64,000 nucleotides of DNA from Synechococcus sp. KORDI-100 (lineage in GTDB: Bacteria; Cyanobacteriota; Cyanobacteriia; PCC-6307; Cyanobiaceae): contig NZ_CP006269.1 in NCBI RefSeq assembly GCF_000737535.1, positions 1,116,001-1,180,000 of the forward strand, written 5' to 3'. The notes under the pieces are model-generated. The model saw only the letters and a list, made by a program, of their open reading frames with translations. It had not been told where the DNA came from and made no database searches. The position numbers and the translations under genes were made by a program. This document shows, piece by piece, positions 40,537 through 46,002 of the stretch (its first letter is position 1; each line of letters starts with the position of its first letter).

Positions 40537-40553
40537 ACAAAGGAACCTGTTGT

Positions 40554-41180
40554 TCAAGTTCGCTTCGGCGTGCATTGATCCAGACGTTGAATCAGAGCAT
40601 CAAAGCTGCGGGGGCGATCCGGCGTACTGTCTCTGGACTTGAAAGGTATGCGGACAGCGGAATCCGGAATCTTCACCGGCAATTGTCCCCTTGGGGCAAG
40701 CCGGGGCTCAAATACCAGATTTTGATAAGCAACAAACTGCCCATTCCTGAACCAGCCAACCCGTTCTGCAAAATCCTGAAATCTGACGGATTGATCTGTT
40801 TCCGTCGTTGCTTCCTGTAGTTGCTGATAAACCTCCCGCTGCGCAGACAGGCCAAATTGACCATTTGAATGCACCATCATCAGATTATCGATATAATGCA
40901 AATCCGGGCAGGGAAAACGCGAAGCTGCATTGGCATCAATCCACCCTTCGTTGTTGCGACCCGTGACATCCAGAGCAATCTCTGCGATGGCGGTGTTGGC
41001 ATCTTTCCATTGGTTGTTTTCGAGAAGCTCTTTGAGTTTCAAGTACTTCTCTGATGGATCGTGGCGGAAGATATGGCCTGAATGGTTGTTGTGGCTGGCA
41101 TGTTGCTGCCAGGTGAATCCACAAACAGCAAGTGCGATGAACCCCAGGCCGATGAACGTTTTGCTGGTTTTGAAGTTCAT
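40554..41180 (-). CDS. Membrane-anchored GUN4-domain protein beside feoB
   Basis: 208 residues. A short N-terminal hydrophobic segment (about 8-24) is followed by a His-rich stretch (HASHNNHSGHIFRHD), then the GUN4 core. Recognisable GUN4 elements are YLKLKELLENNQWKDA, GWIDANAASRFPCPDLHYID, SNGQFGLSAQREVY and RVGWFRNG. GUN4 binds porphyrins and stimulates Mg-chelatase. It starts only 5 bp downstream of the feoB stop, so it is probably cotranscribed with Fe(II) uptake. The His-rich linker could bind metal; this is inference. It is a distinct paralogue from the usual soluble chlorophyll GUN4. Confidence 0.82.
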   Translation of the reverse strand: MNFKTSKTFIGLGFIALAVCGFTWQQHASHNNHSGHIFRHDPSEKYLKLKELLENNQWKDANTAIAEIALDVTGRNNEGWIDANAASRFPCPDLHYIDNLMMVHSNGQFGLSAQREVYQQLQEATTETDQSVRFQDFAERVGWFRNGQFVAYQNLVFEPRLAPRGQLPVKIPDSAVRIPFKSRDSTPDRPRSFDALIQRLDQCTPKRT

Positions 41181-41185
41181 GAGGA

Positions 41186-43039
41186 TTAAAAAATGAGGTT
41201 AAAAATGTTGTAAAATGAGAAACTTATGACCCAAGCAACGCACAAGGAGAGTGTGGCTGAGAACACTGTAAACTTGATCGATTTTGATTCCCCAAAGATT
41301 GTTCCAAGAGTTGTAAGGCAGGGAATATAAAGAAGGCTGAATAGGAGATAGCTGAATCCTTGAGCGAGTGTGAGATCCATTGCCAGCTGGGCTTGAAGTG
41401 CATCATTCGACAACCCATAGACAGTCGCAAGAGCTGCAAGCTGGACTTCCTTGGCAACAAAACCGATGATCAGTGAAACGGTCAGGAAAGGACTGATTCC
41501 AATTGGATTCATCACCGGCGCGAAGAAACTTCCGAGTTGACCGGCGTAAGAGTCAATACCTTCTGCTGAACCTTCAGGGAAATTTGTCAGAAACCAAGTT
41601 ATGGTTGTACCCAGAATCATGAACATCATGACTTTGGTCATGAATGATTTCATTTCATTCCAGACATTGAAAAAAACCTGTTTTGCCGTCGGTATTCTGT
41701 AAGGTGGTAACTCAACCACAAAGGGCTCTTCATTCTTGAATTGGCCTGTAAAGTTGAAGATTGTCGCGATCAGATAAGCAACGACAAAGCTCATTATGTA
41801 AAGACCGAACAAGGCCATCGCGCCTGAAGGGCCAGGCAAGATAACAGCTAAAATAAAGACAAAAACTTGTAGCCTTGCTGAACATAATGAGAAGGGAATT
41901 ATTAACATCGAAAGCAGTCTCATTGCTCTGGATCGCATCACACGTGTTCCCATGACGGCAGGAACATTGCAGCCAAAACCCATTAATTGCAGAACAAATG
42001 CTCTTCCATCCAGCCCGCATTTTTCCATCAGAACATCAATCAAGTAGGCAGCTCTGGACAGATATCCACTGTCTTCCAAAGCCGTCATCACAACAAAGAA
42101 AAGAGCAACAAGCGGTACAAATGAAAAAACGGTTGCAATCCCTGAAAAGGGTCCCTCCACAACGAAGTCCTGAACAATTGAGGGGAAGGGGCTTAAGGCT
42201 GGTTCGAGCAGAGATTCCTGAAACCATCCAGTTAGTTCGTCGACAGGATCGGCTGTTGGAATACCGATGGACCAGATGAACCAAAACACGAGGAACATGG
42301 TTGCAAAAAAGATCGGCAACCCAAAACCAGGATGCAGCAGCCATCGATCAATACGATTGGTCAACGTCGTGATGTTGACGGCGGGCATGTTGATCGATCC
42401 CTCGATCACCTGATCAAGCTCGGCCTGCTGGGTTGGATGTTCCTTGAAATATTCAACGACGCTGTCAATGGTGACGCTTTGATCAACTGTCTCAAGAGAA
42501 GATAAAATTGATTCATAAGCCTTATCGCAGCCAGTTCCATATTTTGCGCTTATTGCGTGCGTAGGAACGTTTAGATTTTTTTGAAGTTTAACAAGATCAA
42601 TTCCCACATTGAATCTCTTAGCCTCATCGGCCATATTCAGAATGACGATGATCGGCAATCCCAATGCTTTTAGTTGAAGGGGGATCCTGATCTGTCGATC
42701 AACCTGAACAGCGTTTAAAACCACCACCACGAGGTCGACAGAATTGGTTTCTAAGAATGTTTGGACAACTTTTTCATCGTCTGTAAATCCATCAAGATCA
42801 TAGATGCCAGGAAGATCAACGAACTCAACTACTTGATCATTCAGATTTAATTCGGCTCGCATCAAATCAACCGTCAGACCAGGCCAATTCGCTACACCTG
42901 CGCCGGCCTTTGTGATTTTGTTGAAAAGAGTTGATTTTCCCGTGTTTGGTTGACCGATGAAAGCAACGCGTTTTGGTTTGTTTTTCGGTTCTCGTGGACT
43001 ATCGTTTTGGAATTGATTCGGCGGAGCTGTAATTGTCAT
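41186..43039 (-). CDS. feoB: Ferrous iron transporter FeoB
   Basis: 617 residues. Cytoplasmic G domain first: G1 GQPNTGKST (29-37), G3 DLPGIYDL, G4 NMAD. The membrane domain with about eight to ten helices follows, including the Gate motif GFGCNVPAVMGTR and a second gate in the C-terminal half. It imports Fe(II). Codon use is AT-rich relative to flanking genes. It follows feoA by 36 bp. Confidence 0.97.
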   Translation of the reverse strand: MTITAPPNQFQNDSPREPKNKPKRVAFIGQPNTGKSTLFNKITKAGAGVANWPGLTVDLMRAELNLNDQVVEFVDLPGIYDLDGFTDDEKVVQTFLETNSVDLVVVVLNAVQVDRQIRIPLQLKALGLPIIVILNMADEAKRFNVGIDLVKLQKNLNVPTHAISAKYGTGCDKAYESILSSLETVDQSVTIDSVVEYFKEHPTQQAELDQVIEGSINMPAVNITTLTNRIDRWLLHPGFGLPIFFATMFLVFWFIWSIGIPTADPVDELTGWFQESLLEPALSPFPSIVQDFVVEGPFSGIATVFSFVPLVALFFVVMTALEDSGYLSRAAYLIDVLMEKCGLDGRAFVLQLMGFGCNVPAVMGTRVMRSRAMRLLSMLIIPFSLCSARLQVFVFILAVILPGPSGAMALFGLYIMSFVVAYLIATIFNFTGQFKNEEPFVVELPPYRIPTAKQVFFNVWNEMKSFMTKVMMFMILGTTITWFLTNFPEGSAEGIDSYAGQLGSFFAPVMNPIGISPFLTVSLIIGFVAKEVQLAALATVYGLSNDALQAQLAMDLTLAQGFSYLLFSLLYIPCLTTLGTIFGESKSIKFTVFSATLSLCVAWVISFSFYNIFNLIF

Positions 43040-43075
43040 AGAGCATTTCTGAAAATGACCAAAAAATTAGATGCT

Positions 43076-43414
43076 TTAGTTTGCTTGTGAATAAATTTGT
43101 GGTTTCAAGATTACATTTTTTGCTTCTGAACGTCTGATGGCTAGCTCTGTGGTGCTACCAACTCTGATTGCAATGGGGCCGCCCATGAATGCCTTTTTCA
43201 TGACAAGGATTGTTTTATTTTCAATGAGTCCCATTGCAATCAGTCGTGTTCGCAGGCCATCTTCGACCGTTGAATTATTGCTTGAAATTTGGTGAATGAT
43301 ACCGATTTCACCGATCTGAAGCTTGTCCAGAGTCAGTGGTGAACTATTGCTGTCCAGGTCGAATTCGACGACTCTGAAATCTTCCGGAACTGATGAGAAA
43401 TGTCTAAGAACCAT
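43076..43414 (-). CDS. feoA: FeoA-domain protein
   Basis: 112 residues with the SH3-like FeoA fold: LDKLQIGEIGIIHQI, RTRLIAMGLIENKTILVMKKA, GGPIAIRVGSTTELAIRRSEA. FeoA is the small partner that modulates FeoB. An N-terminal 25-residue extension precedes the fold. It sits directly upstream of feoB and about 48 bp after the ferritin gene. Confidence 0.95.
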   Translation of the reverse strand: MVLRHFSSVPEDFRVVEFDLDSNSSPLTLDKLQIGEIGIIHQISSNNSTVEDGLRTRLIAMGLIENKTILVMKKAFMGGPIAIRVGSTTELAIRRSEAKNVILKPQIYSQAN

Positions 43415-43462
43415 GATCTTGATTTCATTGTGGATAAAGATTGTGTTGCATACTTTTAGATT

Positions 43463-44020
43463 TCAAGCCGCCCCAGTCCCATTGCCAGTTGCTGTGGATC
43501 CTGCACTAAATGCTCCACCAGCTTTGACATTGGCAAGCAATGTTCCATCTAAAAATTGTTGATCAAGCAGTATTAGTGCTGCCGTATTAGAGTCAGCTAG
43601 TCGTAATCTTTTTAATACAAAACGTGCTTCAGATTCCTCTTTTACCTGCTCCTCAATGAACCAGTCGAGCATTGCGGTTGCGGCACGATCACCTTCTTGC
43701 TCTGACAATGTATAAATGTTGTTAATTGATTCCGTGACTTGTTTCTCCATTGTATAAACTGTTTCAAATAGATGCTTAACTGTTTGAAACTCTCGCTCTG
43801 GAGATTGAATGGTTGGTAGTTGTACTTTGCGCTCACTGTCGACGAGATAAGCAATCATCCTTGAGGCATGTCCACGTTCTTCAATACTCTTTTCAAGCAT
43901 ATAATCAGAGAACCCGATTAGATCTTTCTCGCGAAGCCAGATTGACATGGCCAGATATGCATGACTAGCTTGAAATTCAAGAGCTAGATGATCGTTGATC
44001 GCAGCTGTGTGTGACGTCAT
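43463..44020 (-). CDS. Ferritin, ferroxidase-type
   Basis: 185 residues of four-helix bundle. All the expected ferroxidase ligands are present in register with the E. coli FtnA pattern: Glu15, Glu48, His51, Glu92, Gln125 and Glu128, with Tyr22 nearby. It should store Fe(III) after oxidising Fe(II). A C-terminal Gly/Ala/Thr-rich tail is present. It is first in a likely ferritin-feoA-feoB-GUN4 order, linking storage with Fe(II) uptake. Confidence 0.95.
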   Translation of the reverse strand: MTSHTAAINDHLALEFQASHAYLAMSIWLREKDLIGFSDYMLEKSIEERGHASRMIAYLVDSERKVQLPTIQSPEREFQTVKHLFETVYTMEKQVTESINNIYTLSEQEGDRAATAMLDWFIEEQVKEESEARFVLKRLRLADSNTAALILLDQQFLDGTLLANVKAGGAFSAGSTATGNGTGAA

Positions 44021-44054
44021 TTTTCGGTATATCCAATCTTTTTATAGGCATGGG

Positions 44055-44073
44055 CAGTGAAAATCATTCCAAA
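44055..44073. promoter_or_regulatory. Weak Fur-box-like sequence
   Basis: The stretch around AGTGAAAATCATTCC has a core resembling half of the Fur consensus (AATCATT). It lies between the divergent ferritin and porin genes, where an iron-controlled promoter would be expected. The match is partial and the overall region is AT-rich, so it is only a candidate. Confidence 0.25.
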
Positions 44074-44361
44074 TTAAATGTTAAGGCGGCAATAAAATCA
44101 CTCCTGCTGTAAAATTTGATATTTCAAAGAGTGCTTTTCTGTCCTCTGTTTTTTATTCCCTCGAAAGGTAGGTCTTTTTTTATTTTTTACTGCGATCTGT
44201 ATCGTCTTCGAGATCTCTTTCGTTGTAAGGCTTTTGGCGAAAAAGTCTCCGTGGAAACCTGTTCACGGTCGAGATTTTGAGCAATTCGTGCGGTCGTGTG
44301 CGAGTTGTTTTTGTTGTCGTCACTACAGTTATTTCGTTATGTCTTTTCGCGCACCTGCCTT

Positions 44362-46002
44362 ATGCGCCCTTTCTTAAACTCTTTTTCCGATATCAATCAG
44401 CCTCAGCTGCATCCTGGTTCCCGAAGTTTCAAGTGTTGCACGTCTTTGTTTGGGGGGATGGCGCTTGCTGTTGCAGGAACCTGCGGATTGAGTCAGCCAG
44501 TATCCGCTGAAATTGTCGATCTTGAGTCGGTCAATCGTTATGTTTCTGGCAAGGCATCGGCTCGAGACCAGGTCACCAGCATCACCCAGTTCTCTGACGT
44601 CTACCCGACCGACTGGGCTTACCAGGCTCTCGCCAGCTTGATCGAGCGCTACGGCTGTATCGCCGGTTACCCAAACGGCACCTTCCGCGGCAACCGGGCC
44701 ATGACCCGTTACGAGGCAGCTGCCCTTCTCAACGCCTGTCTCGACCGCATCACTGAGGTCACCGACGAACTGCGTCGTCTGATCAAGGAATTCGAAAAAG
44801 AACTCGCCATCATCCGCGGCCGCGTCGATGGCCTCGAGGCCCGCGTCGGCGAACTGAAAGCAACCCAGTTCACCACCACCACGAAACTGGATGGACTGGC
44901 CACATTTGTGGTGGGTGCGAATCGCTTTAAAGGGTCTGCTGGTCGGCTTGGAGATGAGAACAACGGCAGATACGGCGCCACCGTTTTCAACTATGACCTG
45001 CAGCTCAATCTCGAGACTTCCTTCACCGGTAAGGACATGTTGACAACCGTGCTGCGCTCAGGAAATTTTGATGAAGACGGCAGTCCTTTTGGGAGTGGTG
45101 GCCCCTCAGGACTCGCAACCCTGGAAACAGCCTTCCAGGAAGGAGATGAACCCAACCGAGTGGCGATTGAAAAAATTTATTACTCCTTTCCAATCGGTGA
45201 TTCCCTCACACTCACTGTCGGTCCACTTGTCGGTCAGGAGGACATGCTCGCATTGTGGCCGAGCACTTACCCCACTGATCCGATTCTTGAAGTGATGACG
45301 ATGAATGGTGCCCCTGCTGCTTACAACGAAAATCTTGGTGCAGGTGCGGGGATCAGCTGGGAGCTTGAGAATGGTTTCAGAATGTCGGCAAATTATGTTT
45401 CCGCAAATGGAGCATTAGGTAACAGTGATGAAGGTGGTATCGCCACCGATCAGTCTGGAAGCTCCGCGACTGTTCAGCTGGGTTGGGAGGCTGAGAACTG
45501 GAATATTGCCGCGATCTATTCAAAAATTCAAAACGGTCATGATCTGATCCCTTACATCACTCCTTTTGTTGATGATCATTCTTACGGGAAGGGAACAACC
45601 AGTGCCTTTGGCCTGGCTGGTTCATGGTCCCCTGAAGACAGCGGCTGGATTCCCTCCGTGTCCGCAGGTTGGGGCTACAACAGCATGAACACCGACAAAC
45701 GTGGACAGGCGGAAACCAGTCAGTCCTGGAGTGTTGGCCTTGAATGGAATGATGTTTTCTTGCTGGGAAACAACGCTGGCATGGCCGTTGGCCAACCGGT
45801 TTTTGCCACCAGCTTGCGTGGGGGTGGTAGCGCTGCTGATGGGCAGTTCATCTGGGAGTGGTGGTATCAGTTCCAGGTGACAGACAACATCAGCATTACT
45901 CCTGCACTTTTTTACCTTTCACGTCCTCTCGGAGAAAACACGCCGTCTGACAAGACCTTTCAGCAATTGGGCGGTCTGGTCAAGACGACCTTCACATTCT
46001 GA
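44362..46002 (+). CDS. SLH-domain outer-membrane porin (iron-uptake porin type)
   Basis: 546 residues from ATG 44362. It has an unusually long signal-type N-terminus (cleavage after PVSA near 49), then one SLH domain (about 77-125: DVYPTDWAYQALASLIERYG, PNGTFRGNRAMTRYEAA). A coiled coil follows (LRRLIKEFEKELAIIRGRV), then a long beta-barrel of alternating strands ending in Phe. This is the standard cyanobacterial SomA/iron-stress porin architecture. Its position opposite the iron-uptake genes suggests iron-linked expression, though the substrate is not proven. Confidence 0.9.
   Translation: MRPFLNSFSDINQPQLHPGSRSFKCCTSLFGGMALAVAGTCGLSQPVSAEIVDLESVNRYVSGKASARDQVTSITQFSDVYPTDWAYQALASLIERYGCIAGYPNGTFRGNRAMTRYEAAALLNACLDRITEVTDELRRLIKEFEKELAIIRGRVDGLEARVGELKATQFTTTTKLDGLATFVVGANRFKGSAGRLGDENNGRYGATVFNYDLQLNLETSFTGKDMLTTVLRSGNFDEDGSPFGSGGPSGLATLETAFQEGDEPNRVAIEKIYYSFPIGDSLTLTVGPLVGQEDMLALWPSTYPTDPILEVMTMNGAPAAYNENLGAGAGISWELENGFRMSANYVSANGALGNSDEGGIATDQSGSSATVQLGWEAENWNIAAIYSKIQNGHDLIPYITPFVDDHSYGKGTTSAFGLAGSWSPEDSGWIPSVSAGWGYNSMNTDKRGQAETSQSWSVGLEWNDVFLLGNNAGMAVGQPVFATSLRGGGSAADGQFIWEWWYQFQVTDNISITPALFYLSRPLGENTPSDKTFQQLGGLVKTTFTF

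Follow-up and report, generated by a model that had tools for sequence, protein, structure and literature searches.

A ferritin-feoAB cluster with a GUN4-domain paralog behind feoB in Synechococcus sp. KORDI-100

What is a GUN4-domain gene doing at the end of a set of iron genes? The question is raised by a locus in a 64,000-nucleotide stretch of Synechococcus sp. KORDI-100 (RefSeq assembly GCF_000737535.1, contig NZ_CP006269.1, positions 1,116,001 to 1,180,000 of the forward strand), which we call the window. On its minus strand, at 40554-44020, genes for a ferritin (ftn), FeoA, FeoB and a GUN4-domain protein follow one another head to tail in that order of transcription. A sequence-only reading of this DNA had taken them for a module, transferred as a unit, that could link iron supply to the making of heme or chlorophyll. 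We conclude that the cluster is genuine and compositionally odd, and that it consists mostly of ordinary iron genes with one rare, unexplained partner. It is probably an Feo uptake and storage operon with a ferritin, in which an anchored GUN4 paralog would serve as an accessory of the Feo system.

The GUN4-domain gene behind feoB

The KORDI-100 genome (G000; 2.79 Mb in one contig) contains two GUN4 matches. The second copy is canonical and lies at G000:C1:1775630-1776049; it scores 182 bits against PF05419 and covers profile positions 2-141, compared with 93 bits and positions 5-124 for the operon copy (P0001). Passages of Rockwell and Lagarias (PMC10156173) describe GUN4 orthologs as mostly retaining the motif LxNxLR, whose Asn is required for bilin binding by the Chlamydomonas protein and is absent across members of the paralog clade. 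At the aligned place, the canonical copy of KORDI-100 reads LVNQLR and the operon copy reads VKIPDS. We aligned 94 GUN4 rows, keeping about every fourth canonical sequence (11 rows, CAN), leaving a weak paralog of genome G076 out of the tree and counting two further tree rows that are copies of the window gene as P0001. LxNxLR occurs in 23 of these rows: all 11 chosen canonical sequences, 12 of the 71 found with P0001, none of nine coiled-coil paralogs and no P0001 row. At one position the operon copy carries Met where all 91 other rows carry Trp. In the GUN4 tree it falls within a 63-tip group that holds none of the 23 rows with the motif. By motif and tree, then, the operon gun4 is a paralog: a PF05419 protein that lacks the LxNxLR Asn, in a genome that also holds a canonical copy.

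With canonical Gun4 (Synechocystis sll0558, structure 1Y6I) the operon protein shares the PF05419 domain and detectable similarity to 1Y6I (E 3.3e-07). However, besides the missing motif it has an N-terminal membrane segment, and it aligns to 1Y6I only from residue 92, whereas the canonical KORDI-100 copy aligns from residue 53. Like the cyanobacterial GUN4 paralogs (sll1380-type and fused domains), it lacks LxNxLR and carries an FPCxDL-type motif, present in 51 of 59 non-canonical rows. In 386 genomes of the phylum, its best 25 matches, at 35-42% identity, fall on accessory GUN4 domains, many of them within far longer open frames; 99 of the genomes hold a match at E<=1e-12, and the matches listed reach to about 7e-19. 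It differs from these paralogs in standing alone, in its place behind feoB, in its single Met for Trp and in its His-rich linker. GUN4 domains fused to kinases, caspases, trypsin and TIR domains are described in a passage of PMC7159879.

Within the family, Cyanobiaceae, matches to the operon copy have 25-31% identity in 201 genomes, with one of 36% among 400. At E<=1e-8, no intact close relative was found in the 400 family genomes, which yielded only a remnant in the sister genome G203 (87% identity over 47 residues) and six matches of 27-36%. Similar GUN4 domains, all below 60% identity, lie on 27 plasmid records from filamentous and other cyanobacteria. Eight of those records are predicted to be conjugative and nine mobilizable.

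Could the protein act at the tetrapyrrole branch point, as a Gun4-like regulator through which iron supply is coupled to the making of haem or chlorophyll? Its Pfam GUN4 domain and the 5-bp gap behind feoB would suit such a role. In addition, a passage of PMC10156173 reports that Chlamydomonas GUN4 without the Asn needed for bilin still bound porphyrin; the operon paralog could thus have a tetrapyrrole ligand. However, loss of the Synechocystis paralog sll1380 gave no gun4 phenotype, as another passage of that source has it, and the Met in place of Trp also argues against the idea. Since a canonical Gun4 is encoded elsewhere in the genome, LxNxLR is missing from the operon copy and hydropathy places a membrane segment at its N-terminus, we consider coupling of the Gun4 type very unlikely and do not uphold the earlier proposal for heme or chlorophyll.

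Two other ideas about the protein were dropped. A cysteine pair (FPC plus a C-terminal RLxxC) is not distinctive: 28 of 59 non-canonical rows have the two elements together, and RLxxC is also present in 8 of 23 canonical ones. P0001 matches the PADLOC model of the defence protein PD-T4-6, but only over positions 303-448 of 450, and Pfam finds GUN4 alone. Some cyanobacterial PADLOC hits to PD-T4-6 through its C-terminal third may represent GUN4 domains instead of defence kinases.

Predicted location and iron context of the paralog

Hydropathy averages 2.2 over residues 9-23 of the paralog, behind two lysines, and we take the N-terminus for either a signal anchor or a signal peptide. Val ahead of Cys20 speaks against a standard lipoprotein site. 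Five His follow the segment within 14 residues: HASHNNHSGHIFRH. By the same crude hydropathy measure, 4 of 27 other GUN4 proteins begin with a hydrophobic segment, including the small stand-alone proteins L193 and L195. The GUN4 domain of the operon copy is probably periplasmic or lumenal, with the N-terminus anchored.

We know of no function assigned to a cyanobacterial GUN4 paralog. How might this one fit among iron genes? Going by the known functions of their families, the divergent porin would let iron cross the outer membrane, FeoA and FeoB would bring Fe(II) across the inner membrane, and the ferritin would oxidise and store what is imported. The paralog, probably anchored with its domain facing the periplasm or lumen, would most likely act as a small Feo accessory, perhaps one that handles iron or haem. 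Its candidate ligands are iron, haem, porphyrin or something else, for which the five His close to the membrane give no more than a hint. A more specific version, which we think rather unlikely, makes the paralog a dedicated partner of FeoB whose membrane-proximal His linker and GUN4 pocket would capture Fe(II), haem or iron-porphyrin on the outer face of the inner membrane and feed or gate import, which would give the GUN4 fold an iron role apart from chlorophyll synthesis.

The other genes, identified by Pfam and NCBIfam profile matches, are listed in Table 1. The ferritin carries the motifs EERGHA and EEQVKEE, which we take to be ferroxidase-centre residues, and in the Protein Data Bank it best matches chains that bear the name ferritin (e.g. 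2x17, 2jd6, 7ohf, 6gka). It scores 66.7 bits against the NCBIfam non-heme ferritin equivalog NF007638, below the cut-off of 178; by these profiles it is a ferritin, yet not the NF007638 equivalog. FeoB has the motifs GQPNTGKST, DLPGIYDL, NMAD and GFGCNVPAVMGTR and a G domain together with a permease core of Gate domains and FeoB_C (TIGR00437, PF02421, PF07670 and PF07664). As in FeoAB operons generally, feoA lies immediately upstream of feoB, and a FeoA match adjoins feoB in many of the FeoB loci examined in other cyanobacteria; what differs here is the ferritin ahead and the GUN4-domain gene behind. Of the 56 other family genomes with feoB, 16 likewise have, by coordinates, a ferritin within 0.5 kb upstream of it, but their FeoB proteins are 41-44% identical to that of KORDI-100 and none has a GUN4 gene adjacent. 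Because both the ferritin-feo and the feoA-feoB arrangements recur, both are ordinary, and the gun4 tail is the odd part.

Table 1. Features of the ferritin-feoAB-gun4 locus (window coordinates; residue numbers for the protein layout)
Feature	Position	Strand	Description
ftn	43463..44020	-	non-haem ferritin, 185 aa; PF00210, 114 bits; first gene of putative operon
feoA	43076..43414	-	FeoA domain protein, 112 aa; PF04023, 63.7 bits
feoB	41186..43039	-	Fe(II) transporter with N-terminal G domain, 617 aa; TIGR00437, 537 bits (cut-off 316)
gun4 paralog	40554..41180	-	208 aa; PF05419, 92.8 bits (cut-off 29.2)
Layout of the paralog protein			hydrophobic segment ~9-23; five His in 27-40; GUN4 domain 43-169; RLDQC near C-terminus
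Divergent intergenic region, ftn to porin	44021..44361	.	341 bp between both start codons
SLH/OprB porin, 'iron uptake porin' family	44362..46002	+	546 aa; NF033921, 289.5 bits (cut-off 100); PF04966; PF00395
Short stem-loop, 3' end of gun4	40543..40561	-	weak terminator candidate at junction with convergent pilD

Gene order and strand are as the sequence-only reading had them. The gaps between open reading frames, which it put at about 48, 37 and 5 bp, are 48 bp (ftn-feoA), 36 bp (feoA-feoB) and 5 bp (feoB-gun4), and a single transcript of all four genes is suggested by this spacing. Its divergent SLH porin is also there, 341 bp from ftn instead of 340; the protein joins an NF033921 match above cut-off to the SLH domain PF00395. 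In passages of a metatranscriptomic study of other strains (PMC9723758), feoB transcripts rose with an iron chelator and some Synechococcus ferritins rose at low iron, so a ferritin-feo operon would make sense at low iron.

How often does a GUN4 gene accompany feoB? At E<=1e-30, FeoB is present in 57 of 201 family genomes. We located PF05419 matches in these 57 and in G203, with a match in 57 of the 58. By coordinates, GUN4 adjoins feoB in one of the 57, KORDI-100 itself; the next-nearest pairs are 8.4 kb (G189) and 27 kb (G062) apart. Beyond the family, where the cut-off for FeoB was E<=1e-140 in the phylum, the coordinates of 28 FeoB genomes show no case in which a GUN4 match shares the contig of feoB and lies within 100 kb of it. 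Contig ends in fragmented assemblies limit both counts. Scans of genome contigs (for the GUN4 paralog and FeoB) and of viral contigs (for the paralog) returned no relative, but they detect close relatives only, and the FeoB scan missed FeoB genes known to exist, so such scans are no evidence of absence. The open-access literature that we searched contained no description of a feoB-GUN4 link. The linkage is thus unusual for feo, as the sequence-only reading had supposed, but gun4 and feo stand apart in most relatives, which, next to a lack of co-regulation under iron stress, is one of the two things that reading had named as counting against its own proposal.

Perhaps gun4 is only a passenger, an accessory-type GUN4 gene whose place behind feoB is accidental and which plays no part in iron handling? 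The adjacency counts of 1 in 57 and 0 in 28 favour this view. Accessory GUN4 domains are numerous in other cyanobacteria and are also carried on the 27 plasmid records, from which it appears that GUN4 paralogs can move between cyanobacteria; chance neighbours are therefore possible. However, the 5-bp gap and shared strand suggest coupled expression. The sister genome, described below, bears on this question as well.

Several observations weigh against an Feo operon with an accessory paralog. Among the genomes examined, just one has feo and gun4 intact side by side, so the adjacency could be accidental. The location of the domain is a prediction from hydropathy, and a single-sequence AlphaFold model of the paralog has a mean predicted local distance difference test score (pLDDT) of 38. 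Of the window's 99 long frames, 3 likewise contain at least five His in 14 residues, which makes the His stretch weak evidence. L193 and L195, with their clear signal-like starts, fall outside the tree group of the operon copy; hence no exported subfamily stands behind the operon paralog, although a GUN4 domain on the outside would still not be unique to it. The nearest tree neighbours of the operon copy are poorly resolved (support 0.57-0.73), and this tree and the FeoB tree were both rooted at the midpoint. Regulatory signals gave no help. We scanned the 341 bp between ftn and the porin gene, and the gaps of 48 and 36 bp, with three Fur-box consensus strings and found no Fur-box-like site above shuffles, the best scores being reached by 20-94% of shuffles. 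A promoter scan returned fewer sites than shuffles, and the 4 terminator-like sites found, against 6.4 expected from shuffles, mean that the stem-loop at the gun4 3' end is no evidence by itself. The regions upstream of ftn in G213, G211 and G222 gave no useful alignment with that of KORDI-100.

History of the site and origin of its parts

Only 1 of the 34 genomes of the genus, 19 of which are at least 90% complete, has FeoB. The site between pilD and accD, where the cluster lies, is readable in 30 of the 34, though three of these loci end ahead of the neighbouring gene. pilD and accD are direct neighbours in 19 of the 30. Six hold a ferritin beside pilD with no feoAB or gun4 match, and the remaining two are KORDI-100 and G203. 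The KORDI-100 ftn is of the family type: its identity to the site ferritins is 93% in G211, G213 and G222, 87% in G221 (whose contig ends inside the gene), 80% in G061 and 76% in G004. By comparison, it is 68% identical to a second ferritin of its own genome. Several ferritin matches (e.g. G062, G142, G076, G113) contain one internal stop, perhaps where the match overruns the gene end.

FeoB has a different history. It is 63% identical to the protein of G344 and 56-59% identical to those of several other genomes outside the family, and at most 50% identical to any inside it. In a midpoint-rooted tree of 56 tips (29 family and 26 outside FeoB sequences besides our own, tblastn stops written X, some inner nodes at 0.16-0.37), it belongs to a 9-tip clade whose other 8 members come from outside the family (support 1.0), and to a 22-tip clade that includes none of the 29 family sequences (support 0.998).

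Composition is likewise uneven. The G+C content is 42.8% in ftn, 42.2% in feoA, 44.2% in feoB, 50.2% in gun4 and 53.5% in the porin gene, and 56.0% (PRK), 59.4% (accD), 61.9% (leuB) and 65.5% (pilD) in the neighbours. The AT-richness reported earlier is genuine, yet it is graded, 42-44% G+C in ftn-feoAB against flanks of 56.0-65.5%, and forms no sharp block. A repeat search around the locus gave no obvious flanking repeats of an element, and the single tRNA of the window is far off.

In G203 the flanking genes are the most similar in the genus (accD 98%, PRK 98%, pilD 91%), and the flanks of the site are 85-87% identical to those of KORDI-100. ftn, feoA and feoB are absent there, and G203 has two ferritins elsewhere. 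What survives of gun4 is its 3' end: an alignment of 227 bp includes 173 bp of the gene, interrupted by a gap of one base. The stem-loop stretch is nearly unchanged. Most simply, the cluster stood in the common ancestor of KORDI-100 and G203 and was later deleted in G203. A former feoAB in G203 is something we infer, what is seen there being the gun4 tail and the porin start. The G203 porin gene is itself truncated (L062:5489-5884): residues 1-85 align and little of the remainder is left, which makes this a second deletion in addition to that of the iron cluster.

Does G203 speak for a passenger? Most of gun4 was lost there along with feo, which favours that view, but its frame is open and intact in KORDI-100 while the G203 tail decays. 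Weighing this with the 5-bp gap, we find a passenger gun4 doubtful, though a possibility to take seriously, and we continue to favour an accessory of the Feo system.

Was the whole ftn-feoA-feoB-gun4 block moved as one AT-rich unit from one donor, as had been suggested from its composition? The low G+C content and the outside-family type of FeoB, 63% identical to its nearest match, would agree with this. However, ftn is 76-93% identical to the site ferritins of six congeners, FeoB groups outside the family, no second feoB genome among those examined has a GUN4 gene adjacent, and the G203 scar suggests that the cluster predates the split. Ferritins at the site without feo, together with that scar, make transfer as one unit so unlikely that we set it aside. 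At this site, related species hold a ferritin without feoAB or gun4, or nothing. From these comparisons the locus looks like a mosaic, with feoAB of a non-family type and an accessory-type gun4 placed between a ferritin and pilD.

Two further observations concern neighbouring or related genes. The prepilin peptidase gene that borders the site looks broken (internal stops or split matches) in G202, G197, G174, G215, G212 and G219, and its match is whole and stop-free in KORDI-100 and G203. The coiled-coil GUN4 paralogs of the family lie near genes for AcrB/AcrD/AcrF-type RND pumps. Of the nine loci checked (L092-L100, in G189, G124, G051, G084, G113, G030, G182, G142 and G155; a tenth, in G076, stood outside the set), seven are convergent with the pump gene at no more than 0.7 kb, and in the other two (G189 and G030) the pump is about 3.1 kb away. 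We know of no report of such a link, though we made no search for one.

Meaning for iron genes and GUN4 paralogs

Picocyanobacteria, according to passages of PMC3475125, largely lack FeoAB. Elsewhere, feoAB is reported in Synechococcus CC9311, where it drew mapped reads (a passage of PMC9723758), and a passage of PMC7522525 names FeoA as one of the CRD1-clade-specific genes. Against this background, an outside-type FeoAB joined to a ferritin at an existing site, and apparently lost again in the sister genome, is a good case of gene turnover in an iron niche. The presence of a GUN4 domain in an operon is, by itself, no evidence of chlorophyll regulation. A GUN4 paralog in an iron operon does, however, offer a testable context for the function of these paralogs.

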